Origin: an uncultured Opitutaceae bacterium
GTDB taxonomy: Bacteria; Verrucomicrobiota; Verrucomicrobiia; Opitutales; Opitutaceae
Reading direction: 5' to 3'
NCBI GenBank assembly: GCA_903929355.1
Contig: CAIYUN010000038.1
Span: 1 to 64,000, forward strand
Length of the DNA: 64,000 nucleotides
The notes under the pieces are model-generated. The model worked only from the letters and a program-made list of their open reading frames with translations, had not been told where the DNA came from and made no database searches. The position numbers and the translations under genes are program-made. Below, in pieces: positions 9,333 through 63,119 of the stretch (positions are counted from its first letter, which is position 1; each line of letters begins with the position of its first letter).

Positions 9333-9426
9333 AGGGGCTGACCAGAGGTCAGAAGGGAAAGTGGGGCCACCGCCGGCCCGGATGGCAGGGGCTGATATCT
9401 GACGTCCGATCTCTGACTTCGGGTGC

Positions 9427-44416: not shown

Positions 44417-44476
44417 AACTTTGCTTTGGTTTCGTGTCAAACTTTGCTTTGGTATTCTGCTCAACTTTGCTTTGGT
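44417..44476. repeat. Three 23-bp iterons upstream of the Fic gene
   Basis: AACTTTGCTTTGGT occurs at 44417, 44440 and 44463, exactly 23 bp apart, just upstream of the Fic start (44405). The period is close to two helical turns. It is a likely binding site for the AbiEi-like domain. Confidence 0.75.
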
Positions 44477-44518
44477 TTCTTGCACAGAGTAAGGCTTGAT
44501 CGGTCATTTACCCCCGCC

Positions 44519-44749
44519 GTGTTCACGGCAACGAGCTTGAAGAAGCTCTTGCGCGAGTCTTGCCCCCTCACCCTCAACCAGACCATTCGTGCCGTGCAGG
44601 AGTTGGAGAAGGCCAAACTCATCGCTACCGTCGAGACCATCTGGCGAAGCCATGCCTATGCCCCTACGCAGGCCGGCGTGCGCCTTGTGGCGTATTTGGA
44701 GGCGTCCAAGCATCTTGCCCAGCCGACAATCCCGTCTAGGGAAGTTTAG
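44519..44749 (+). CDS. Winged-helix DNA-binding fragment
   Basis: From GTG at 44519 the 76-residue product has a winged-helix-like order: LKKLLRESCPLTLNQTIRAVQELEKAKLIATVETIW, a wing, and a last helix. No ATG is in frame, so the real start may be missing. It lies between two copies of the Fic promoter repeats and on the opposite strand to Fic. It may be a truncated regulator. Confidence 0.4.
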   Translation: MFTATSLKKLLRESCPLTLNQTIRAVQELEKAKLIATVETIWRSHAYAPTQAGVRLVAYLEASKHLAQPTIPSREV

Positions 44750-44774
44750 GGGATGGCCGGCATCCCCAATCGCT

Positions 44775-44811
44775 AACTTTGCTTTGGTATTCTGCTCAAC
44801 TTTGCTTTGGT
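44775..44811. repeat. Two further 23-bp iterons (duplicated Fic promoter)
   Basis: AACTTTGCTTTGGT at 44775 and 44798, again 23 bp apart. The flanking sequence (ggcatcccc, cgctaactttg) matches that before the Fic gene, so a promoter-plus-start-codon segment has been copied. Confidence 0.7.
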
Positions 44812-44874
44812 TTCATGCACGGATTTGCCGTGGCAGGAGGCACCCCAAACAGCCGCAAGGTTAGAGCGGTGATT

Positions 44875-46849: not shown

Positions 46850-47635
46850 TCAAGAGCCGCCGGCACCGCTGCCGCCCCGGGAGCTGCCCCGACCGCCGGG
46901 AGTGCCGGCGGTCGTCTCGTCGGCGGGATCCTCGGTCGTGGGGCGGGCGGAGCTGGTGGCGGTCTCCAGCGTGCTGAAAATCTGGATGGCCGGCAGTGTC
47001 CCGGGGTTCTGCTTGATCGCCTTGCCGTTCACCACGACCATGTAGAGCGTGGTCTTGGTCTGCAGGTTGAGCCCAAACACGTTGCTGGCGACCTCGGTCT
47101 GGGTGTCCGCCTTGGGCACGAACACATGGAGCTCGCAACGGTTGGTGTCGGCCGGCTTGGACATGACCTTGAACTCGCCGGGATTCAGGGCCAGCTTTTG
47201 CGTGTTGAACTCTAGGGCCAGCGGGACCCCCGCCGCGTTGACCAAGCGCACCTGGCCCATCCCAAAGGAGGCATTGGTGTCGGGGATGCCCTGCCCCGCG
47301 ATCTCTGCCGCCGGGATCAAGAGGGCGAGATAATTCCCGGAGACGGCGGGGAAGGAGACCGCGCCGGCGTGCACATAGGGGATTTTGGGGTCCCGTTGGG
47401 GATTGCGCTTAAACAGCTCCATCGCGGGGACCCCGGTGTAACTGTAGCTGGTGTTGGGCAGCTGGTTGGCCACCGCCTTGATGGGCTTGTAGGCCCCACC
47501 CGTGAGGTAAAAAAGTCCGTCAATGCTGCCACCCAAGGCCAGCACGCGGAAGGTGACGGTGATGTTCGCGGACGCACCCAGGAGACCGGGGGTGAGGAGG
47601 ACGGCGGCCAGGAGCAGAGTGAGGATTTTTTTCAT
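46850..47635 (-). CDS. Secreted protein of unknown function, in the Verru_Chthon cluster
   Basis: The 261-residue product has a signal peptide (MKKILTLLLAAVLLTPGLLGAS). The mature part is beta-rich, with SYTGVPAMELFKRNPQ, GNYLALLIPAAEIAG and a C-terminal Ser/Gly-rich low-complexity tail (GGRGSSRGGSGAGG). It begins 13 bp after the stop of the large prepilin-like gene. An ATG at 47659 is in frame but overlaps that gene. It may be an accessory of the cassette; no family is recognised. Confidence 0.6.
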   Translation of the reverse strand: MKKILTLLLAAVLLTPGLLGASANITVTFRVLALGGSIDGLFYLTGGAYKPIKAVANQLPNTSYSYTGVPAMELFKRNPQRDPKIPYVHAGAVSFPAVSGNYLALLIPAAEIAGQGIPDTNASFGMGQVRLVNAAGVPLALEFNTQKLALNPGEFKVMSKPADTNRCELHVFVPKADTQTEVASNVFGLNLQTKTTLYMVVVNGKAIKQNPGTLPAIQIFSTLETATSSARPTTEDPADETTAGTPGGRGSSRGGSGAGGS

Positions 47636-47648
47636 GGGGCGAGGTTGG

Positions 47649-50600
47649 TCAGATGTCATTGGAGGTCAGCCAGCGGAAAGAGACCACCCGAAACTTGCGG
47701 CCAAAGCTTTTGTTGGCGGCCGTGAAGGTGGAGTCATTGGGGGACAGGGTTGGCGCATTGGTGGGATCGGAATAATCGGGCATCCGCTGCACCACGGCCT
47801 CACACCAGGCGCGGGCCTGGATCGAGGCGGGGGCCGGCCCCTGCGTCGTGCTGGTGGCATTGGCGTCGAACGGATCCACCACCTCACCATAGGCCCGGAC
47901 CAAAAAGGTGTCGGAACGGGCGGCGATGACGGGGCCGAGCGCCTGCAGCACATCGGCCTGGGTCAGCCAGCCGGGGATGCCCTCTGAACGGTTGGCCGAT
48001 TCCTTGGTGATGTCAAAGTCGGGATAGATGGTCGCGTCGTTGGGACTGAATTTCACCAGCTCGGGGGTGTTGGTCAGGGTGGCAGAGGTATTCGCGACCG
48101 TGTTGAGGGCGCTCTGCAGGAGCCCCACGCTGCTGGCGGGGTCGGTGACCGCGCCAAGCTTGCGGTTGACAAACTGCGCCAGGGACAGGAACGGCCCGCG
48201 GGAGCGGATTTCCTGCACAATGCGGACCGCGAGGGCGTCGATCTGCGGGTCGGTCAGCTTGCGAAACCCGGCGAAGGACGGCGATTCGATCCCGGTGCCG
48301 GTGGCGGCAAAAACCGAGCTGGACAGCAGCGCGCTGCTGAAGCTGGCGTTGCCGGAAAACGAAGGCGGGGGCAGGGAACGGGGGAAAGGGGTCTCGCCGT
48401 TCGGGGCGGCGGTGGTCGTGCTCACGGCATTGTTCAGGCCGATGGCCCGCAGGGATGACAGCACCGCCCGCCAGGCCTCGACCGACGTGGAGTTGATGTT
48501 GAAAGCACCGTTGACGAGGAGGAAGCGCGCAGCCGCATAGGGGGTGGGCAGATTCTTCGTGGCATTGCCCGGATCGGTCGGTTCCGGCACGGTGGTGGGC
48601 TTGGTCCCCGCCAGACTGATGCCGAGCTGCGCGACGGAGGGGGTGAAACCGGCGGCAAAGTTCAGACGATTGTTGGCCGGCAGGCCTGCCGTGGCCCCGG
48701 TCTGCCGCAAGGTGGAGAAGAAATAGCGGTCCCACAGCGCCGCGTTCAAGAGGTAGCTGATGTCATAGACGCCGGTCCCGGCGGGCAGCGCGGCGTTGGG
48801 CAAGTTGCCGGTCATCGGGCGGGGGTCGGATTTCACTGTGATGCTTTTCCGCAGGCTGGTGGTGCGGGCCACATAGGGCGAGAACCAGGAGTTGCCCACG
48901 GCGTTGCCCGGCTGGTAGCCGACCGAGGCGAACAGGTCGTCGGCCGTGGCATCCGCATGCTGAAACTGGCCGAGGGAATACAGGGGCATCTCCGAGGTGC
49001 CGGGCGTCCGGGCCGGGCTGTTGAACAGGATGACATTTTTCACCGGATTGGCCCCGCTGTTCATCGTGCCGCCGGTGCTGTGGCCCCAGTACGACAGGGT
49101 GGTGAGGTCGGTGAATTGCTCGCTGGTGGCGGTGACCGGCGGCGTGCTGCTGTCCGGCCCAATGACCTGATCGAACATGCTCTCATACGGTGGCACCGTG
49201 GGGAAGCCGTTCGTGTTGGTGTAAATGACCGGCGTGCTGCCATCCTGGTTGAACTGAAAGGTGCCCGGCCGCATGAGGGGCACCCCGAGCGGCGCGGTGG
49301 GCGTCAGCGCCAGGTTGCTGGCGCGAAGGTTGTAGTCGGCAAAACTGCGGTAACTGACCCGGTTGCTGAGATTGTCGGTGTTGAAAAAGGACAGTTCCAG
49401 CGGGGTCGGACCATTCGCCCGATGATGGGTGAGCCAAACCGTTTCCGGCGACGCGAGGATGAAATAGAACTCAGTCACCCGCATCGGCCAGATGGTCGCC
49501 CGGTTCCGGCGGTAGCCATCGTTCGGCACCGCCTCCACCAGCGGGCTGCCGGTGGGAAACGAGGCGCCACCATTGGTCTCCGCGACCGTGCCGACTGTCG
49601 TAGGCAGGTTGCTGGTGCCCCGGGGATAGCCGGTCAGATCCATGTTCAGCACCGATTTAATCACGTTTTGTCCGGGGGCGCTGCCGCCTTGCCGCATTTC
49701 CAAGGTGCACGCGGGAGCCGGATACACCACCATCAGCATGGCCAGGTTGTCAGGATAGACCGGGGCCGTGCCCGCCACCCCTCCGGCCACCGCCTGCACA
49801 TTGGGCTGCGAGGTGTCGCGCAGGAAATAGGCCGGGTTGAAGACCGGGTCGAGGTTGAGGATCCGGGCCGGCACAGTGTTGCCGGGCGTGTCCGGTCCCG
49901 AGACAATCGCGGCACAAAGGTCCGGAGTTATGGCGTTGGCGCTGAACCCACCCTGGGGATAAGCATCGTTGGCAATCGGCGCCGGGTTCGGGGCGGGGCC
50001 GTCCACGGCCTTGTAGGCGAGCGAGAAGATCTTGACCTCGCCGGGCTGAAACGTGGTGGCGGGTGATTGGCTGATGCGGAAGGCCACCGAGCCCAACAAG
50101 CTGGGGTCGGTGTCGAAGCCGAAGGCGGCGTTGTTTTTCAAGATGGGAAAGTAGCCGTTGAGATGATGTTTCGAATCCAACGTCCCATAATGGGCCAGCG
50201 TGGTGCCGTCGCTGAGGACCGGCTTGTTGCGCAGCCCGGGATACATATCCATGTCAAACGGACTGTCGAAATGTCCGTTGGGATAGGCTCCGGAGGCCAC
50301 CTCGGTGTCCTGATGGATCCCCGGGCCAACCACCTTGGCAAGCCCGTTGCCCCAGCGAATGTTGACGGCGATGCCCCAGTCGAAGGAAGTGCGGCTGCCG
50401 GCGGTGGGGCCGGAAATGCCCGCAGAGTCGGGCGCGCTGGTGTTGATCACATACTGCAGGTCCAGCCCGGCGGTGGGAACCGAGATGGGAAAGTTGTAGG
50501 GATTGGCGAGCACAAACACCGGGGCACAGGAAACGTAAAACGGATAAGGAGGGGTGCCCTGGCTCGCCCCGGCCGCCATGAACAGGCCGAACCGCAGGCG

Positions 50601-52124
50601 CGTTTGCACGACGACGGGGGCGATCGGCTGCTGCGGGTTGCCCGCTGCATCGATGGGACCACGCATGAGCACGGCCCCGGCATTGGCCTGCACCGTTCCG
50701 TTCAGCGTGACCGTTCCGCTGGTGGTGGCGGTGAGCGCGGAAAGATCGTGAAAGGATTTGAGCGTGTCCCACTTCGGCCCCTTGGCCGGGCTGACCGCCG
50801 GCCCGCCGGGCTCCGTCGTCGTCACGGAACCCGCGGCCAAAGTCCCCGTGCCGTCGGGCAGGATGAGCTTGCCCTTCAACCCGGTGGTCGCGGTCACCGT
50901 GGAATACAGCGGGTTGGCGGTCGTCAGGGTGGCCTGGTCGAAGGCGGCGGTCAGGTCATAACGCAGCCCACCCCGCATCGAGTCCGCCAGCACGCCATAG
51001 GAATAGGTGGTGAAGTCGTGGAAATGGCCCTGCCAGATGGTCTGGCTGGCGGTGGTGCTGACGCTCAGAGTGCTGTCAGCAAAGCGGGCCTGGGACGGGG
51101 CCAGGGTGTTCGACGCGCTGAGCGTGTTGATCGGATAACCGGCGAAGCCCTGCATCCGCTCCATCCCGTTGCGTTGGGCGGCGAGGAACCGCTGCCGCGT
51201 CTGCGGGATCACGGCCGTCGCGAGCGTGCTCGAGGTGCTGTTGGTGTCGCGCAAATTGTATTTGGCCTTCACGCCCTCATCCAACACCACATAGGCGAGG
51301 CGGCCGATCCGGTAGCTGCTGCTGCCGCCGAGGCCGGGCACCTGGGCGCCCGCCGCCGTGATATCCACCAAGGGGGCCACCACATAACGCGCCACGGCCT
51401 GCGTCGTGACGCTGACTCCGGAGAGGGTGGTCGAGATCGCGGTGGTGCCGGCCGAGTTGGGCCCGACCATGAGCATGGCCGGTTTGGCCCCGCCGGATGA
51501 GTTGATCGTCAGATTCGAGGTGAGCGCCGACACGGTCGCCGACAGGCCGGTCACCGCCTGGTTGGGTTGGAACACCGGTTTGCCCGCGGCCGGGATGACC
51601 TGACCACCGGTGCCGAGGGTGTAGGCGGTGGCCTCGTTGCCACTCACGAGCCAGTTCAAGAGGACGGGCGAGGGCGTGGAGGTGTAGGCCTGGGCGCCGA
51701 TGGTGGTGGTGGTGCCCCAGCCAAACACGCCGGTCCACTGGCGCGTGCCCCCGCTGGTATTGGGGGCGACCAGCCCGATGGCCGGCCCGGGGGTGGTGAA
51801 GCCGGTGGGGACGGCGGTGGTGGGGTCGCCGTCGTTGCTGCGGCCGAGATCCGCCGGGGCGGTCACCCGCTGGTCGGGACCGGCAAACTTTTCCAACTGG
51901 CCGATGGCCAGATTCAGCGCGACGAGCGCGTTCTGCCGGGCCGAGGCGTCCTTCAGGGTGTTGGCGGACATCTGGGTGCTGACCCGGGTGAGCATCGTCA
52001 TCGCCAGCAACAGCAGAACCAAAAAGGACAGCAGCGCGATGGTGATGAGAATCGCGAATCCGCGCCGGGGGACGGGACGGCGCAGACGGGCGGCAGGGGG
52101 AAGGGAGGAGCGGGAAGTTTTCAT
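47649..52124 (-). CDS. Verru_Chthon cassette protein A
   Basis: A 1491-residue protein with an N-terminal prepilin-like segment (RRGFAILITIALLSFLVLLLLAMTML, about residues 20-45). The rest is a long beta-rich, Ser/Thr/Pro-rich extracellular region with many short repeats. This matches the family known only from Verrucomicrobiota (Verru_Chthon cassette A). It is thought to be exported by a type IV-pilin-like pathway; the function is not known. The neighbouring gene at 52251 is cassette protein C. Cassette B and D are not in this window. Confidence 0.8.
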   Translation of the reverse strand: MKTSRSSLPPAARLRRPVPRRGFAILITIALLSFLVLLLLAMTMLTRVSTQMSANTLKDASARQNALVALNLAIGQLEKFAGPDQRVTAPADLGRSNDGDPTTAVPTGFTTPGPAIGLVAPNTSGGTRQWTGVFGWGTTTTIGAQAYTSTPSPVLLNWLVSGNEATAYTLGTGGQVIPAAGKPVFQPNQAVTGLSATVSALTSNLTINSSGGAKPAMLMVGPNSAGTTAISTTLSGVSVTTQAVARYVVAPLVDITAAGAQVPGLGGSSSYRIGRLAYVVLDEGVKAKYNLRDTNSTSSTLATAVIPQTRQRFLAAQRNGMERMQGFAGYPINTLSASNTLAPSQARFADSTLSVSTTASQTIWQGHFHDFTTYSYGVLADSMRGGLRYDLTAAFDQATLTTANPLYSTVTATTGLKGKLILPDGTGTLAAGSVTTTEPGGPAVSPAKGPKWDTLKSFHDLSALTATTSGTVTLNGTVQANAGAVLMRGPIDAAGNPQQPIAPVVVQTRLRFGLFMAAGASQGTPPYPFYVSCAPVFVLANPYNFPISVPTAGLDLQYVINTSAPDSAGISGPTAGSRTSFDWGIAVNIRWGNGLAKVVGPGIHQDTEVASGAYPNGHFDSPFDMDMYPGLRNKPVLSDGTTLAHYGTLDSKHHLNGYFPILKNNAAFGFDTDPSLLGSVAFRISQSPATTFQPGEVKIFSLAYKAVDGPAPNPAPIANDAYPQGGFSANAITPDLCAAIVSGPDTPGNTVPARILNLDPVFNPAYFLRDTSQPNVQAVAGGVAGTAPVYPDNLAMLMVVYPAPACTLEMRQGGSAPGQNVIKSVLNMDLTGYPRGTSNLPTTVGTVAETNGGASFPTGSPLVEAVPNDGYRRNRATIWPMRVTEFYFILASPETVWLTHHRANGPTPLELSFFNTDNLSNRVSYRSFADYNLRASNLALTPTAPLGVPLMRPGTFQFNQDGSTPVIYTNTNGFPTVPPYESMFDQVIGPDSSTPPVTATSEQFTDLTTLSYWGHSTGGTMNSGANPVKNVILFNSPARTPGTSEMPLYSLGQFQHADATADDLFASVGYQPGNAVGNSWFSPYVARTTSLRKSITVKSDPRPMTGNLPNAALPAGTGVYDISYLLNAALWDRYFFSTLRQTGATAGLPANNRLNFAAGFTPSVAQLGISLAGTKPTTVPEPTDPGNATKNLPTPYAAARFLLVNGAFNINSTSVEAWRAVLSSLRAIGLNNAVSTTTAAPNGETPFPRSLPPPSFSGNASFSSALLSSSVFAATGTGIESPSFAGFRKLTDPQIDALAVRIVQEIRSRGPFLSLAQFVNRKLGAVTDPASSVGLLQSALNTVANTSATLTNTPELVKFSPNDATIYPDFDITKESANRSEGIPGWLTQADVLQALGPVIAARSDTFLVRAYGEVVDPFDANATSTTQGPAPASIQARAWCEAVVQRMPDYSDPTNAPTLSPNDSTFTAANKSFGRKFRVVSFRWLTSNDI

Positions 52125-52250
52125 CCCAAGTAACGGTGAGGAATCATCGGGGTCGACACGGCCGGCGGGTGCCGGCGGGAAATGAAGGCGAAGGTCATCG
52201 GGGTTGGGGTGGGAGGGAAACTCGGCCGATTCCGGCCGGGATGCAACGGC

Positions 52251-53600
52251 TCACATGGGCGCGGCGAGCAGCGCGACCCGCCGGGTGTAGATTTCCGAGT
52301 GGGCGGCGGCCGTCGTCCACCAATAGTCATTGGGCGTCACTCCGGCGGGCGGCTGCGCGAGGCCGCTTTCAATGGCATTGATCAGCTGCGCGCCCTGCTC
52401 GTCGAGAATGCGCAGGAAGATGTCGGCGAAGACCGGGGTGGCGGATTTGTCGGGCGCGCCGGTGCCGCCGGTGCTGCGGTAGCTGTAGCCCCAGGTCATG
52501 AGCCCTCCCGTGGTCCAACCCGAGCTGGCCGGCGGCTGGACGCCGGGGACAACGGTCCCGGTGGTGTCGTCGCGGCGGGTGAGGCCGTCCTCGGTGCTGA
52601 CCGCAAAGCCCAGGTTGGGGTTGCTGGTGGGATTATTGGACGCCGGGAACAGGAGCACGCTCATGGGATTACCGCTGCTGTCATAGGCCAGGCCCCAAAA
52701 ACGCACCCCAAAATCTATGACGTTGTTCCCCAGCAACTGCTGCAGATTGGGGCGGCGGATGTTGCCGGCGGCATCCGCCGCAGCCGGGCCATCGGCGGTC
52801 ACCGGGACGTTGTAGTTGGACGCGATGGCGGTGTGATTCGTGTTGGGACTGCTGGTGGTGAGGGTGTAAAAAAAATCGTAGCCGGACCCAAACGTGGACT
52901 GGTCCTGGGTGCTGCCGGTGTTGGTCGTGGCGTAAGGCCGGACCGCCGAACGGAACAGGTAGTAGTGGTAGGCGGTGCTGGTGGCCGTCAGTTTCACCCG
53001 CAGGATCTGATAGCCGACGGCGCGGGGCGCGGAGGCATTGGCCACATTGGTGTCATTGGCCCCGGGCAGGGTGGTGAACAGCCGCAGCCACACGCCCGCC
53101 TGGCCGAAGCGGTAGGTCGTCAGGTCCGGGGAGAAGGTCGGGCTCGCCGCCAGCGCCGCCGTGGCGGGCGCCGTGTAAGCCGGCAGAAAGAGGGAGGATC
53201 CGGAGGTGTTGGGCGTGGCGTTGCCCGGCTTGATGATGCCGTTGTTGGCGGCCGTCCACAGGGTCGCGTTGGGATTGCTGGCGCCGACACTGTTGCTCCC
53301 GACGCCGCCGGCGTCCCCGGCGCCCGTCTGGGTGTTCTGGATGGTGGCGGCCAGCCACACGCGACCGTCGCGCTTCATCATGGCTCCGCGCAAATCCGAT
53401 GTGACCAGGTCCATGATCAACGCGGCCTGGCTGTCGATCGCCAGCCGGCCGGTCTGCCGGGTCCAAAGATTGAGCACATTCGTGGTGAGACTCAGCATCA
53501 ACGCGACGAGCACGGTGGTGATGCTGATCGCCACCAGCAGCTCGACCAGGGTGAAGCCCGGGCGCGCCGGCACGGGACGGGGTGGACCGTGGGATTTCAT
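52251..53600 (-). CDS. Verru_Chthon cassette protein C
   Basis: The 449-residue protein starts with a type IV prepilin-like N-terminus: a short leader, then GFTLVELLVAISITTVLVALMLSL with the Glu at +5. A variable, beta-rich part follows. This is the pattern of Verru_Chthon cassette protein C. It lies upstream of protein A, separated by 126 bp with no gene, and both are transcribed leftwards. Confidence 0.85.
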   Translation of the reverse strand: MKSHGPPRPVPARPGFTLVELLVAISITTVLVALMLSLTTNVLNLWTRQTGRLAIDSQAALIMDLVTSDLRGAMMKRDGRVWLAATIQNTQTGAGDAGGVGSNSVGASNPNATLWTAANNGIIKPGNATPNTSGSSLFLPAYTAPATAALAASPTFSPDLTTYRFGQAGVWLRLFTTLPGANDTNVANASAPRAVGYQILRVKLTATSTAYHYYLFRSAVRPYATTNTGSTQDQSTFGSGYDFFYTLTTSSPNTNHTAIASNYNVPVTADGPAAADAAGNIRRPNLQQLLGNNVIDFGVRFWGLAYDSSGNPMSVLLFPASNNPTSNPNLGFAVSTEDGLTRRDDTTGTVVPGVQPPASSGWTTGGLMTWGYSYRSTGGTGAPDKSATPVFADIFLRILDEQGAQLINAIESGLAQPPAGVTPNDYWWTTAAAHSEIYTRRVALLAAPM

Positions 53601-57879: not shown

Positions 57880-58365
57880 ATGCGCTCCTCCGTTTTTATT
57901 CGCTACCCGTCCGGCAAGTATGCCCGGGACCGGCCCGCCACCACCGCCCTGCGCCCCGCGCTACGGTTTGCCGCAAAGTTTTTCCTGCTCACCGTCGCGG
58001 TGCTTCTCGCCCTCTATTTCACCACCGTTGCCACCCGGGATCCGTTGCCGCCGGGACCGGGTCCGGCGGCCTGGCGGACCCCGGCCGCCAACCCGGACTT
58101 CATCCTGACCGACATCCGGAGCCGCTGGCCCTGGCGGCTGGTCCCGCCGGAATGGGTGATCCAGCCCGGGGCGGACGATCCCCTCGTGCCCGCCGAGGCC
58201 GCTTGGCTGCGGGTGGAAGGCCGGGCCCGGCTCTTCGTGATTGTGGCCGGGTATCTGCTGGCGGTTGGCTGCCTCTGCCGCCGCCACCGCCGCGCCAGCC
58301 CCGCCGTGGCCTCAACCGGCCGGACCGGCCCTGAGGGCCACACTGCCGGCCATCTCCCCCCCTAA
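57880..58365 (+). CDS. Small membrane protein
   Basis: The 161-residue protein has an N-terminal helix (FFLLTVAVLLALYFTTV), a periplasmic-like middle with PEWVIQPGADDPLVPAEAAWLRV and a second helix (FVIVAGYLLAVGCL). It overlaps the 3' end of the phosphopantetheinyl transferase gene on the other strand by 54 bp. No family is recognised. Confidence 0.55.
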   Translation: MRSSVFIRYPSGKYARDRPATTALRPALRFAAKFFLLTVAVLLALYFTTVATRDPLPPGPGPAAWRTPAANPDFILTDIRSRWPWRLVPPEWVIQPGADDPLVPAEAAWLRVEGRARLFVIVAGYLLAVGCLCRRHRRASPAVASTGRTGPEGHTAGHLPP

Positions 58366-58929
58366 CGCCAGGTCCAGCAACCACGTGTCGGGCCCGCTCG
58401 CGGTCCACCCCGGCAGCGGGGCCGCGCCGCCCGCCACACCCAGGGAGCCGCGGGCGTCCAGCGCGCGCACCCCCAGACCCGCCGCCTTCGCCCGCGCCTC
58501 CTGCCGCGTCCAGAGCCGGTAAAAAATCTGTCGCGCCGCGGCCTCATCCGGACCGGTGGCCAGCGTCGCGCGTTCCGTCGCGTGAAGCAACTCCGCCGCC
58601 ACGGTCCGCCAGTCCACCGCCACTTTCAGGTGCTCGCAGTCCACCCCGACCGCCGGACCGCAGGCCAGCGCCGCCAGCGCCAGCCCGTGGGTATACCCCA
58701 GACTGCAGGTGTAGCCCGGCGGCAGACCGGTCAGGACGGGCCGGCCGTCGGGGTCGCGGCGCACCGTCACCGACCCGGCCGGGACCCCCGCGTGCCCGGC
58801 AGCGGCCTCCACCAGCACCTGCTCCAACTCGCGCCGGACCGCCGACCGCGCCCCGACTGCGCGCCGCGGCCAGACGCGCAACCAGCCGGGGCACGGTGGC
58901 GGGGGCAGCGGCAGCGGTTCGCCCATCAT
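58312..58929 (-). CDS. 4'-Phosphopantetheinyl transferase (Sfp-like)
   Basis: The 205-residue protein transfers phosphopantetheine from CoA to carrier-protein Ser. It has GVDCEHLK (Mg-binding Asp) and FYRLWTRQEARAKAAGLG in place of the usual (W/F)xxKEAxxK; the Lys of the motif is Arg/Gln-shifted (WTRQEARAK). ATG 58929 and 58926 are adjacent in frame. It is divergent from the Pls-like NRPS 80 bp away, so it probably activates its carrier domain. Confidence 0.82.
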   Translation of the reverse strand: MMGEPLPLPPPPCPGWLRVWPRRAVGARSAVRRELEQVLVEAAAGHAGVPAGSVTVRRDPDGRPVLTGLPPGYTCSLGYTHGLALAALACGPAVGVDCEHLKVAVDWRTVAAELLHATERATLATGPDEAAARQIFYRLWTRQEARAKAAGLGVRALDARGSLGVAGGAAPLPGWTASGPDTWLLDLALGGEMAGSVALRAGPAG

Positions 58930-59009
58930 GGCGGTCTTCTGGCCGGCCTCGCCGCAATTGGCGAGCCTGCACGAAACTTTTCCCCGCGCCGCGCGTCGCA
59001 ACCAGTTCC

Positions 59010-62000
59010 ATGTCATCCCCCGCAACCCCGGCGGCGGTCGCCGGCCAGTCGTCGGCCGATCCCGACGCCAGCGCCTCGCGATCGCGTGCCGAGCTGTTGC
59101 ATGAAATCTTCGCCACCACCGCCCGACGGCTGCCGGACCAGGTTGCCGTGCGCTGGGGCACGCACCTGCTCACCTATGGGGAGTTGCAGGAGCGCGCGGG
59201 CGCCATCACCGGATGGTTGCGCGACCGCGGGCATGGCCGCGGCGACCGCGTGCTGGTGTGGCTGCCGCGCAGCCCCGACATGTATGCCGCCCAGCTCGGC
59301 ATCCTCGCCGCCGGCGCCACCTATGTGCCGCTCGACCCCGACACCCCGCGGGACCGTGCCGCCTTCATCGCCCAGGACTGCGGGGCGCGCACCGTGATCT
59401 GCTCATCCCTGAACGCCGCCGAGGCCGGCCACCTCCCGTGCCTGGTGCTCAATCTGGCCGAACTTGTTCAAGGGGCGGCGGGCGGAAGGCGGAGGCCAGA
59501 CGTCAGTGGTCAGACGTCAGCAGTCAGTGATCAGAGGTCGGAGACCGCGGGGGAGGTGACGGACAAAACTTCCTTGGTGAGTGACGCGGCGTGGCCCGGC
59601 CGGACCGACACCGGCGCCACGCCCGACGACTGCGCCTACATCATCTACACCTCGGGCACCACCGGCCGGCCCAAGGGCGTGATGATCTCCCATCGCAGCA
59701 TCTGCCACCTGGTGCGCTCCGAGGGGGCGGTGCTCGGCCTGCGCGAGAGCGATCTGGTGTTCCAGGGTTTCTCGCTCTCCTTCGACATGTCGCTCGAGGA
59801 AATCTGGCCCGCCTGGGCCGCCGGCGCAACCCTGCTGGGTGGCACCACCGAGATGATCCGCGCGGGCGGCGACCTCGCCGGGCTCCTCGCCGCTGCCGGT
59901 GTGACCGTCTGGAACTGTGTGCCGACCATGCTCGCGATGCAGGAGGCGGAGGTTCCCTCGCTGCGGCTGCTCAACCTTGGCGGCGAGACGTGCCCGCCCG
60001 ATCTGGTGCGCCGCTGGCACCGCCCCGGCCGGCGCATCCTCAACACCTACGGCCCCACCGAGACCACCATCACGGCGACCTTTGCCGAATGCGCCCCCGG
60101 CCGCCAGGTCACCATCGGCCATCCCCTGCCCGGCTACCGCATCGTGTTGCTCGACGAAAACTGCGCCCCCGTCCCACCGGGGGAACCGGGCGAGCTTTGC
60201 ATCGGCGGCCCGGGGGTCGCGCTCGGCTATGTCGGCCGCCCGGAGCTGGACCGGGAAAAATTTCCGCCCGACCCCGCCGCGCCGGCCGGCGGCCGGCTTT
60301 ACCGCAGCGGGGACCTGGCCCGACTCAATCCCGCCGGGGAGCTGGAGTTTCTCGGCCGCATCGACACGCAGGTGAAGATCCGCGGCTACCGGGTCGAACT
60401 CGCGGAGATCGAGGCGGTGCTGCTCGAATGCCCTGGCGTGCGCTCGGCCGCAGTGCAGCTGCACCGCGACGCGGCGGGGGTAGAGCTGCTGGCCGCCCAT
60501 GTCGTGCCCCGCGCCGGCTCCAAGGTGGACGCCCGCGACCTGCGGGCGCGCCTCCGCGCCCGCCTGCCGGGGTACATGGTGCCGTCGGTCATCGCGCCGC
60601 TGGCGGCGCTGCCGCTGCTGCCGAGCGGGAAGGTGGACCGGGCCCGCCTCCCGCCCCCGGGCGTGCACCCCCCACGCCCGGCGGCGACCCGGCCCGGAGA
60701 CGGCGTGGTCGATCCCACCGCGGCCGGCACGCCGACGGAGCGCCGGCTGCTGGCGATCTGGACCAAACTCTTTGCGGCCGACGTGGAATCGGCGGAGCAG
60801 GATTTCTTCACCGACCTCGGCGGCCACTCGCTGCTCGCCGCCGCGCTCGTCTCGCGCCTGCGCCGGGAACCGGACTTCCGCCACGTTTCGATGCTCGATC
60901 TCTACCGGCACCCGACCATCCGGCGGCTGGCCGCGCAGCTGGAAAAATCTCGCCCCGCGCCGGCCCCGGCGGCGGCCGGCGGGCCCACGCGGGCGGCCGC
61001 CTTCACGCCCACCCCCGCGCGGCGCTATTATCTCTGTGCCACGGCGCAGGCGGTCGCGCTGTTTGCGCTCTACGGCCTCACCGCGCTGGAGGTGTCGGTG
61101 CCGTTCCTCGCCTACTCCTGGCTGATCAACCACGACTGGGTGCCGCCCATCGCGCTCGCCGGCGCGATGGGAATTCTGTTCGTGCTGCTCGGGCTGATGC
61201 CGTTCATCGCCATCCTCGGCAAATGGCTCGTGCTCCCGCAGGCGCGGCCGGGCGAATACCCGCTGTGGGGCGCCTATTACTTCCGCTGGTGGTTCGCCCA
61301 GCGGATCATGGACACCGTCCCCGCCGACTATCTCTGCGGCACCACCCTCGCGCGCCGGTTCTTCCGCCTGCTCGGCGCGCGGATCGGGCGGAATGTCCAC
61401 CTTGGCTCCGACCTGATCGACCTGCCCGATCTGGTGACCATCGGCGACGACGTCGTGCTCTCGGCCGGCGCCATGCTCATCTGCTCGCGCGTCGAGGACG
61501 GCCGGCTCAAGCTGGCGCCCATCGTGCTTGAAAACGGCGCGTTCGTCGGCGCGGGCTCCCTGGTTTCGGGTGGCGCCACCATCGGCGCCGACGCGCACCT
61601 GGGCGATTTGTCGCTGCTGCCGCGCGGTGCCGCCATCCCGCCGGGCGAGCTCTGGCTGGGGTCGCCCGCGCGCCCGGCCGGCGCGGCCCCGCGCCGCCAC
61701 CACCCGCGCCCCTCCGCCGAGACGGAGGCGAACGCCGAGCTGCTCTACCTGCTGCTGGCACCGGTCTTCGCGCTCTTCGCGTTGCTGCCCATCGCGCCCG
61801 GGCTGCTGATTCTCAACGCGGCGGTCTTCGGCGAGAGCTGGCGGTTCCTCTGGTGGTCACCGGTCGCCGCCCTGCTTTATGTCGTCTTCATGTGCCTCGA
61901 GATCGCCGCGATGAAATGGGTGCTGCTCGGTCGCGTGGCCCCCGGCCGCTACCCGCTGCACAGCCGTCAATACATCGAGCATTGGTTTGTCGACCGCCTC

Positions 62001-63119
62001 ATGGAGATGAGCCTCGAGGTGGTGAAGCCGCTCTACGCCTCGCTCTACCTCAATCCCTGGTATCGGATGCTGGGCGTAAAGCTCGGCCCGCGCGCCGAGG
62101 TCTCGACCGCCTCGGCCATCGGCTACGACCTGCTCACCATCGGCGAGGAGGGGTTCATCGCCGACGCCGTCCTCCTCGGGCCGCCGCGCGTGTGGGACAA
62201 CGAGTTCATCCTCGAGCCCACCACCGTCGGCCGCCGCGCCTTCGTGGGCAACAGCGCGCTCGTCCCCGCCGGCACCGTCCTCGGCGACGAGGTGCTCGTC
62301 GGCTGCCTCTCCGTGCCGCCGCCCAACCCCTTGGACGCGGACCGGTTCGACTCCTCGTGGTTCGGCTCGCCGGCCGTGTTTCTGCCGTCGCGGCAAAAGT
62401 CCGCCGGCTTCGGCGAGGGGGCGACATTCAAACCAACCCGCTGGCTTTACGCCCAGCGCCTCGCCATCGAGGCCGTGCGGATCATCCTTCCGATGACCGT
62501 CATCATCACCGTCAACTCCTGCCTGCTGATGACGGCATTGAAATTTGAGTCGAGCTTCGACACCTGGCAGATCCTGGTGATCTTCCCCGCGCTCTACCTC
62601 TGGCTGGTCGCCGCCGCCGCGCTGCTCGTGGTCGCGCTGAAGTGGCTGGTGATCGGCGTTTACCGGCCGGTGGAGCAACCGCTCTGGAGCCGCTTTGTGT
62701 GGCGCAGCGAGCTCGTCACCTCGACCTACGAGAACCTGGCGGTGCCCTTTGCCGCCGAGCTGATGCGCGGCACGCCCTTCCTCAACGTCTACCTGCGCCT
62801 GCTCGGCTGTCAGATCGGCCAACGCGTCTTCACTGACACGACGGACCTCACCGAGTTCGACGTGGTGATGGTCGGCGACGAGGCCGCCCTCAATGCCGCC
62901 TGCGGTCTGCAGACCCACCTGTTCGAGGACCGCGTGATGAAGATCTCCCGCGTGCAGATCGGCGCCCGCGCGGTGGTGGGGTCGCTGGCCATTGTGCTCT
63001 ATGACTCAAAGATGGAGGACGGTTCCCGCCTCGACGACCTCTCGATGCTGATGAAAGGCGAGACGCTCCCGGCCGGCACCTCCTGGCGCGGTTCACCCGC
63101 GCAACCTGTTACTCAATAA
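59010..63119 (+). CDS. Pls/PosA-like non-ribosomal peptide synthetase (poly(amino acid) synthetase type)
   Basis: The 1369-residue protein has an adenylation domain (about 25-560; YIIYTSGTTGRPKG, GELCIGGPGVALGY, YRSGDLARL), a carrier domain with the phosphopantetheine Ser in LGGHSLLAAAL (about 607), and a C-terminal half with six hydrophobic segments alternating with three left-handed beta-helix domains (NVHLGSDLIDLPDLVTIGDDVVLS; SAIGYDLLTIGEEGF; FTDTTDLTEFDVVMVGDEAAL). This A-T-(TM-C)x3 plan is that of epsilon-poly-lysine synthetase and the terminal-domain NRPS family: there is no thioesterase or condensation domain. Residues ~166-192 are a repeat-derived in-frame insertion. The monomer is not predictable. 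Confidence 0.88.
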   Translation: MSSPATPAAVAGQSSADPDASASRSRAELLHEIFATTARRLPDQVAVRWGTHLLTYGELQERAGAITGWLRDRGHGRGDRVLVWLPRSPDMYAAQLGILAAGATYVPLDPDTPRDRAAFIAQDCGARTVICSSLNAAEAGHLPCLVLNLAELVQGAAGGRRRPDVSGQTSAVSDQRSETAGEVTDKTSLVSDAAWPGRTDTGATPDDCAYIIYTSGTTGRPKGVMISHRSICHLVRSEGAVLGLRESDLVFQGFSLSFDMSLEEIWPAWAAGATLLGGTTEMIRAGGDLAGLLAAAGVTVWNCVPTMLAMQEAEVPSLRLLNLGGETCPPDLVRRWHRPGRRILNTYGPTETTITATFAECAPGRQVTIGHPLPGYRIVLLDENCAPVPPGEPGELCIGGPGVALGYVGRPELDREKFPPDPAAPAGGRLYRSGDLARLNPAGELEFLGRIDTQVKIRGYRVELAEIEAVLLECPGVRSAAVQLHRDAAGVELLAAHVVPRAGSKVDARDLRARLRARLPGYMVPSVIAPLAALPLLPSGKVDRARLPPPGVHPPRPAATRPGDGVVDPTAAGTPTERRLLAIWTKLFAADVESAEQDFFTDLGGHSLLAAALVSRLRREPDFRHVSMLDLYRHPTIRRLAAQLEKSRPAPAPAAAGGPTRAAAFTPTPARRYYLCATAQAVALFALYGLTALEVSVPFLAYSWLINHDWVPPIALAGAMGILFVLLGLMPFIAILGKWLVLPQARPGEYPLWGAYYFRWWFAQRIMDTVPADYLCGTTLARRFFRLLGARIGRNVHLGSDLIDLPDLVTIGDDVVLSAGAMLICSRVEDGRLKLAPIVLENGAFVGAGSLVSGGATIGADAHLGDLSLLPRGAAIPPGELWLGSPARPAGAAPRRHHPRPSAETEANAELLYLLLAPVFALFALLPIAPGLLILNAAVFGESWRFLWWSPVAALLYVVFMCLEIAAMKWVLLGRVAPGRYPLHSRQYIEHWFVDRLMEMSLEVVKPLYASLYLNPWYRMLGVKLGPRAEVSTASAIGYDLLTIGEEGFIADAVLLGPPRVWDNEFILEPTTVGRRAFVGNSALVPAGTVLGDEVLVGCLSVPPPNPLDADRFDSSWFGSPAVFLPSRQKSAGFGEGATFKPTRWLYAQRLAIEAVRIILPMTVIITVNSCLLMTALKFESSFDTWQILVIFPALYLWLVAAAALLVVALKWLVIGVYRPVEQPLWSRFVWRSELVTSTYENLAVPFAAELMRGTPFLNVYLRLLGCQIGQRVFTDTTDLTEFDVVMVGDEAALNAACGLQTHLFEDRVMKISRVQIGARAVVGSLAIVLYDSKMEDGSRLDDLSMLMKGETLPAGTSWRGSPAQPVTQ
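59505..59545. repeat. gtcagacgtcagcag-type repeat within the NRPS gene
   Basis: The sequence cagacgtcagtggtcagacg, extended by tcagcagtcagtgatcagaggtcgg, lies in frame and codes SGQTSAVSDQRSE between the A2 and A3 motifs of the adenylation domain. Similar words occur between urtE and urtD at 9340-9420 (ccagaggtcagaag, tgatatctgacgtcc). It is a dispersed repeat. Confidence 0.7.

Follow-up and report, generated by a model that had tools for sequence, protein, structure and literature searches.

The question raised by positions 58312-63119 of the stretch analyzed here (the window: 64,000 nucleotides of contig CAIYUN010000038.1, from an uncultured Opitutaceae bacterium of the Verrucomicrobiota) is which product is made by a large synthetase gene and the phosphopantetheinyl transferase gene divergent from it. 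Both open reading frames (ORFs) sit at the coordinates given by an earlier interpretation made from the letters alone (the sequence-only reading). With a probability of roughly two in three, the synthetase is a membrane-bound enzyme whose product is a cationic homopolymer joined by isopeptide bonds, delta-poly-L-ornithine being the most likely one, built through carrier loading and a three-repeat domain. According to the abstract of PMC10522769, actinomycetes were the only bacteria from which such polymers were known until the Acinetobacter enzyme was described. The best-known family product, epsilon-poly-L-lysine, has approval as a food preservative in an increasing number of countries (PMC8117764). 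A literature search that covered several listings in part found no published Verrucomicrobiota case of the Pls/PosA family; the main text of PMC10522769 contains no word beginning with "verruco", its homologue list being placed in the supplement, outside this check. A verrucomicrobial enzyme with its own probable activator would extend polyornithine to a phylum for which no published case was found, and the two-gene set would be easy to express.

The synthetase (1369 amino acids, 59010..63119, plus strand) matches TIGR02353, the Pls/PosA family of non-ribosomal peptide synthetases, with 663.7 bits against a cut-off of 423.1. The Pfam domains AMP-binding (PF00501), AMP-binding_C (PF13193) and PP-binding (PF00550) come in that order before the TIGR02353 match, and hexapeptide matches are also present. 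The adenylation domain covers approximately residues 30-548 (59097..60653; TIGR01733, 419 bits, cut-off 317.4) and is followed by the carrier, or thiolation, domain (60741..60938; PF00550, 44.9 bits), whose Ser607 is Ser in all 32 rows that have the column in our larger alignment of 33 rows. No condensation or thioesterase family occurs among the five Pfam matches of the synthetase or among the best 25 of its 111 NCBIfam matches. The sequence-only reading had described a Pls-type synthetase with adenylation and carrier domains, no thioesterase and the architecture of epsilon-poly-lysine synthetase, and all of this is borne out by the domain matches. The transferase (205 amino acids, 58312..58929, minus strand) matches PF01648 with 39.4 bits against a cut-off of 25, and with 40.4 bits in the genome scan. 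The family scores of both proteins are far beyond chance, and the synthetase family is already known and named. The synthetase ORF begins with GTG at 58896, but the gene likely starts at the ATG at 59010; the transferase ORF begins with TTG at 59025, but translation probably starts at the ATG at 58929 (or 58926). The resulting divergent gap is about 80 bases long (58930..59009), and no sigma-70-like promoter was found in it by a sequence scan.

The monomer was predicted from the adenylation pocket. For the window synthetase, an alignment of 21 rows gives the ten-position code DMENNGTITK. Nine of the positions (D259, M260, E263, N302, N322, G324, T346, I354 and T355) are encoded within 59784..60077 and the tenth, K541, at 60630-60632; they were placed by alignment with a control locus and by PDB alignment. 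The control, Acinetobacter locus L079 (loci and genomes carry our own numbers, L and G), returned DMEHNGTVSK, which is the same as the published code of PosA, the delta-poly-L-ornithine synthetase of Acinetobacter baumannii (PMC10522769; PDB 8G95-8G98), an enzyme with the same domain order as that of the window. Seven of the ten positions are identical between the two, among them the Met, Glu and Thr of positions 2, 3 and 7. Among the PosA residues that touch ornithine (Asp217, Met218, Glu221, Thr304 and Ser313; PMC10522769), the Asp, Met, Glu and Thr are kept in the window, and the Ser is changed conservatively to Thr. The Asp that binds the amino group, whose loss the sequence-only reading had named as fatal to its proposal, is present as residue 259 and is Asp in all 32 rows with the column. 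A 117-residue stretch containing the pocket aligns without gaps to the PosA adenylation domain (8G97, 8G95) with 109.2 bits, whereas the epsilon-poly-L-lysine synthase 7WEW reaches a lower 82.1 bits. Code position 2 has been proposed to set the chain length of the substrate, with Phe for poly-diaminopropionate or poly-diaminobutyrate, Met for ornithine and Ala for lysine (PMC10522769). The window synthetase has Met260 at this position, and thus neither the Ala of the lysine enzymes nor the Phe of the shorter-chain ones. Because of this Met and the Glu at position 3, the rule predicts ornithine rather than lysine, diaminobutyrate or diaminopropionate, and the product is best predicted as delta-poly-L-ornithine. 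Extracting the pocket, as the sequence-only reading had proposed, corrects its statement that nothing in the sequence names the monomer.

The remainder of the protein is the membrane polymerization domain (61032..63116). An AlphaFold2 model of residues 675-1369, built with 12 rows, reached a predicted local distance difference test score (pLDDT) of 86.9 and a predicted template modelling score (pTM) of 0.89. In this model a long helix pair and a beta-helix are predicted three times over, with helices at model residues 2-67, 229-298 and 470-541 and beta-helices between and after them. The three membrane/beta-helix repeats named by the sequence-only reading are thus seen here, and it is in the model only that the paired membrane helices, six in all, with three soluble beta-helix units appear. 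The same three-fold layout and a likeness to sugar-nucleotide acyltransferases were reported for PosA (PMC10522769). The best re-ranked structural match was a hexapeptide acetyltransferase (Z 14.4, root-mean-square deviation 2.6 across 139 first-repeat residues); VIA-align re-ranks only Foldseek's own list, and the Foldseek E-values are modest, 8.2e-05 at best. The matches among the rows shown were hexapeptide acyltransferases, carbonic anhydrase-like chains, and designed or complex-I relatives of these, while a sequence search found no solved polymerization domain and returned weak hexapeptide matches only. The corresponding model of residues 1-618 was weaker (pLDDT 72.9, pTM 0.68) and matches many adenylation domains, those of PosA and Pls being within the best 50 rows but not on top.

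Within the polymerization domain, the window synthetase keeps the 53 conserved positions listed, and the sole His among them is His1303 (codon 62916..62918), in the motif QTHLFEDR of the third repeat. This position is His in all 32 rows with the column, although the rows are not independent, and by eye no His was seen in the stretches of repeats 1 and 2 that match QTHLFEDR. We tentatively propose, at somewhat less than even odds, that the domain is a fused hexapeptide acyltransferase pseudo-trimer with one catalytic center, in which the His of QTHxFEDR (His1303) acts as the base and repeats 1 and 2 are structural. The adenylation domain would activate L-ornithine with ATP and load it on the carrier arm, which would be installed by the adjoining transferase. 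The three-repeat membrane domain, with its hexapeptide acyltransferase fold, would then join the loaded ornithine to the side-chain amine of a free ornithine or of the growing chain, with His1303 deprotonating the amine that attacks the carrier-bound amino acid. Chain growth in this manner would need no condensation or thioesterase domain. A 2022 review describes the catalytic mechanism of the condensation step as little known (PMC9205021). A single catalytic His, if true, would explain how isopeptide bonds are formed without a condensation domain across the Pls/PosA family, and the invariant His would offer a direct handle on this step.

The activation of the carrier was considered from gene content. 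Sfp-type transferases are recognized by a conserved Asp and the motif W-x-x-x-E-x-x-x-K, and the window protein has both (Asp97; Trp140, Glu144 and Lys148) in addition to its PF01648 match. These four residues and Thr141 are identical in all five aligned transferases that adjoin a synthetase. No solved close relative of the transferase was found, only two weak matches (E 0.006). The source genome has two PF01648 matches over the cut-off, one on contig C2 (69.7 bits), possibly the housekeeping AcpS, and the window gene. The five same-genus genomes searched have a single match each (67.9 to 69.5 bits), and none of them has a synthetase that passes its cut-off. Within these six genomes the second transferase occurs only together with the synthetase.

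Beyond the genus, a transferase adjoins the synthetase in 16 of the 31 loci checked. These loci comprise 15 genomes examined by coordinates, 10 of genus g45 (Opitutales), L167 and L168, and four annotated plasmid loci, with two loci on short contigs (L067 and L074) left out. In the 15-genome set, the transferase stands beside the synthetase by coordinates in four (the source genome, G132, G339 and the Akkermansiaceae genome G420). G413 is a fifth case. Its synthetase L064 runs off the end of a contig, and a fragment on another contig, L170, shares 621 bases with the truncated end (93% identity); immediately after L170 comes a transferase with 30% identity to that of the window. Judged from this overlap, L170 is either a variant of the L064 gene or a very close relative of it. 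In g45 the transferase is directly downstream in 10 of 10 further loci. None was seen adjacent in the same-family loci L167 and L168 (the latter a 4.9 kb contig), and one of the four plasmid loci, that of Sphingomonas, has one. The transferases of other loci are 21-28% identical to that of the window and their orientation varies, which suggests that several of the pairings probably arose independently.

A number of findings weigh against the polyornithine interpretation. The window synthetase is only 37% identical to the characterized PosA. In a maximum-likelihood tree of 21 rows (six of them unlabelled for code, with weak deep forks and with L080 and L085 on long branches), PosA falls in a separate clade with two other Verrucomicrobiota, L083 and L084 (100/100). 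Three code positions, 278, 330 and 331, differ from PosA, one of which is the Ser-to-Thr contact. No transferase adjoins the synthetase in the near relatives L062 and L063/L086. The window synthetase also departs from the others at 4 of the 133 positions where at least 95% of the remaining rows of the 21-row alignment agree; two of these changes, Glu990 for Arg and Asn1064 for Gly, affect residues invariant in the other 20 rows. Lastly, an insertion of about 35 residues (approximately 164-199; 59499..59606) in the adenylation domain is found in no other row of the 33-row alignment, L168 lacking the region.

The pocket differences lend some weight to the view that the same machine uses another monomer, namely L-2,4-diaminobutyrate, L-lysine, D-ornithine or a modified ornithine. 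The window code is not identical to any of the published codes compared, and PosA crystals accepted D-ornithine and L-lysine as well (PMC10522769). We nevertheless regard another monomer as unlikely, since Met, Glu and Thr are kept at positions 2, 3 and 7. In the tree, a single branch parts the eight Met-code rows from the seven Phe-code rows (100/99), a point in favor of ornithine, but the clades of the window synthetase and PosA are separate and the deep forks are weak. The window clade contains L062, L064 and L086 (98/97); these uncharacterized verrucomicrobial relatives (L062, L064 and L063/L086) are 55-57% identical to the window synthetase, carry the code DMETNGTITK and lack its insertion, and an adjacent transferase was seen among them only after L170, the fragment that overlaps L064. 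The sister branch (89/89) is the plasmid-borne Pls/PosA protein L082 of Sphingomonas parapaucimobilis, which is 46.9% identical and has the Met code DMEHNGTVTK. The epsilon-poly-L-lysine synthetase Pls of Streptomyces, which shares the domain order and the membrane domain, has Ala at position 2 (L080, annotated pls: DAESIGTVVK, 36.6% identity).

The neighboring genes point in the same direction in part. A class III aminotransferase ORF lies downstream of the synthetase in Phe-code rows L070, L071 and L073 and upstream in L072, and in L071 and L072 it passes an NCBIfam cut-off for diaminobutyrate transaminase; no aminotransferase is among the annotated neighbors of a further Phe-code row, L081. 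This comparison concerns seven Phe-code rows, of which L074 is a short contig and L069 was left out. Unlike the four Phe-code loci with an aminotransferase, the window synthetase has no diaminobutyrate transaminase or other precursor gene among its recurrent neighbor ORFs, which fits a monomer from primary metabolism. The genome context therefore agrees partly with the position-2 rule. One of these loci, L072:3915-9873 in an Akkermansiaceae genome, combines a synthetase of Phe code (DFECVSAVSK) with a divergent transferase gene and a neighboring EctB-type diaminobutyrate transaminase, and is by its gene content a candidate poly-diaminobutyrate cluster.

A second alternative concerns the transferase, which may serve other carriers while the synthetase is activated by a housekeeping transferase or by none. 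The source genome has five PP-binding matches, so other carriers exist in it, and to this can be added the near relatives with no adjacent transferase and the low identity of adjacent transferases to that of the window. We consider this alternative doubtful in view of the recurrence of the pair in about half of the loci checked and of the five same-genus genomes that lack both the synthetase and a second transferase. The sequence-only reading had expected the transferase to activate the carrier domain and had proposed a search for the pair in related genomes; gene content and recurrence speak for such a partnership, but it is not a fixed one, as L062 and L063/L086 do without it. The known systems differ here as well. 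PosA locus L079 has no transferase among its annotated neighbors, unlike the window, while that of L082 lies directly downstream on the same strand as the synthetase and is followed by a GNAT acetyltransferase, whereas the window gene is divergent.

It is much less probable that the synthetase is a recent acquisition now decaying and without product. Among 38 genomes (the source and its close relatives), the source genome alone passes the TIGR02353 cut-off, so the synthetase is absent at that level from the 37 others, and the two changed residues and the simple-repeat insertion could be taken as damage. However, the frame of 1369 codons is intact, with a guanine-cytosine content of 89.6% at third positions, similar to neighboring genes, and the pocket, the carrier Ser and His1303 are kept. 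Glu990 as a sign of damage is weakened by the 33-row set, where the position is Arg in 25 rows and Trp in seven, all from g45; at position 1064 all of the 33 rows except the window synthetase have Gly. The insertion falls in a loop that is unstructured in the model (pLDDT below 50 at residues 159-199). A degenerate 7-base tandem array (about GTCAGNN) at 59492-59543 underlies the insertion and is read through in frame, and a similar short 7-base stretch occurs on the minus strand at 9401-9417 of the window. Empty-site evidence of a recent insertion was not obtained; the sole match of the upstream neighbor was a stretch of G021 at a great distance from the transporter gene of that genome.

That the gene belongs to a larger assembly line, or that its product is a capped peptide, can be dismissed as extremely improbable, since we found no point in favor of it, no recurrent tailoring neighbor and no condensation domain over the cut-off in the source genome (one weak match, 22.7 bits), so that the assembly line named by the sequence-only reading as a threat to its own proposal was rejected. 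When the 30 kb surrounding the synthetase were compared with 18 other loci (E 1e-6), the synthetase was the only ORF with a match, and the zwitterionic or capped products suggested earlier are accordingly unsupported. A role in nitrogen storage through the downstream ammonium transporter gene was dropped for the same lack of recurrence and because, in the same-genus genomes G002 and G004, a shared gene still lies about 1.1 kb downstream of the transporter (77% and 74% identity) with no synthetase in the stretch examined. No conserved operon partner other than the transferase remained. The recurrent neighbors in g45 are housekeeping genes, for example yicC, hisS, murJ and an amidase.

The distribution of the family in the order is patchy. 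In the phylum sample 4 of 387 genomes pass the TIGR02353 cut-off, and in the order sample 15 of 372, the source genome being included in both; the remaining 14 of the order sample all belong to g45, where they make up 14 of 55 genomes. Many sampled genomes are incomplete, and some of the absences may be gaps. The g45 loci (L157-L166 and L083) form a second lineage of polyornithine-type synthetases, nearer to PosA, with the code DMEHNGTVTK in 10 of 10 loci examined and DMEHNGSVTK in L083, and with a transferase directly downstream in all 11. Two further verrucomicrobial synthetases have unusual codes, DSECYGGVTK in L085:7185-11153 and DSECFGDVTK in L167:4055-7627; neither reaches the TIGR02353 cut-off (407.3 and 351.4 bits). 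The former is the code of a Bdellovibrionales adenylation domain that took L-arginine modestly and no known diamino acid (PMC10522769). By their codes, L085 and L167 are candidates for an unknown polymer.

Elsewhere in the window, three consecutive minus-strand ORFs occupy 46850-53600, one of them of 1491 amino acids with an N-terminal hydrophobic segment, and the third weakly matches Verru_Chthon cassette protein C (28.6 bits against a cut-off of 256.5). Two related tandem arrays with a 23-base unit, at 44417-44480 and 44778-44828, lie about 300 bases apart within 44417-44828.

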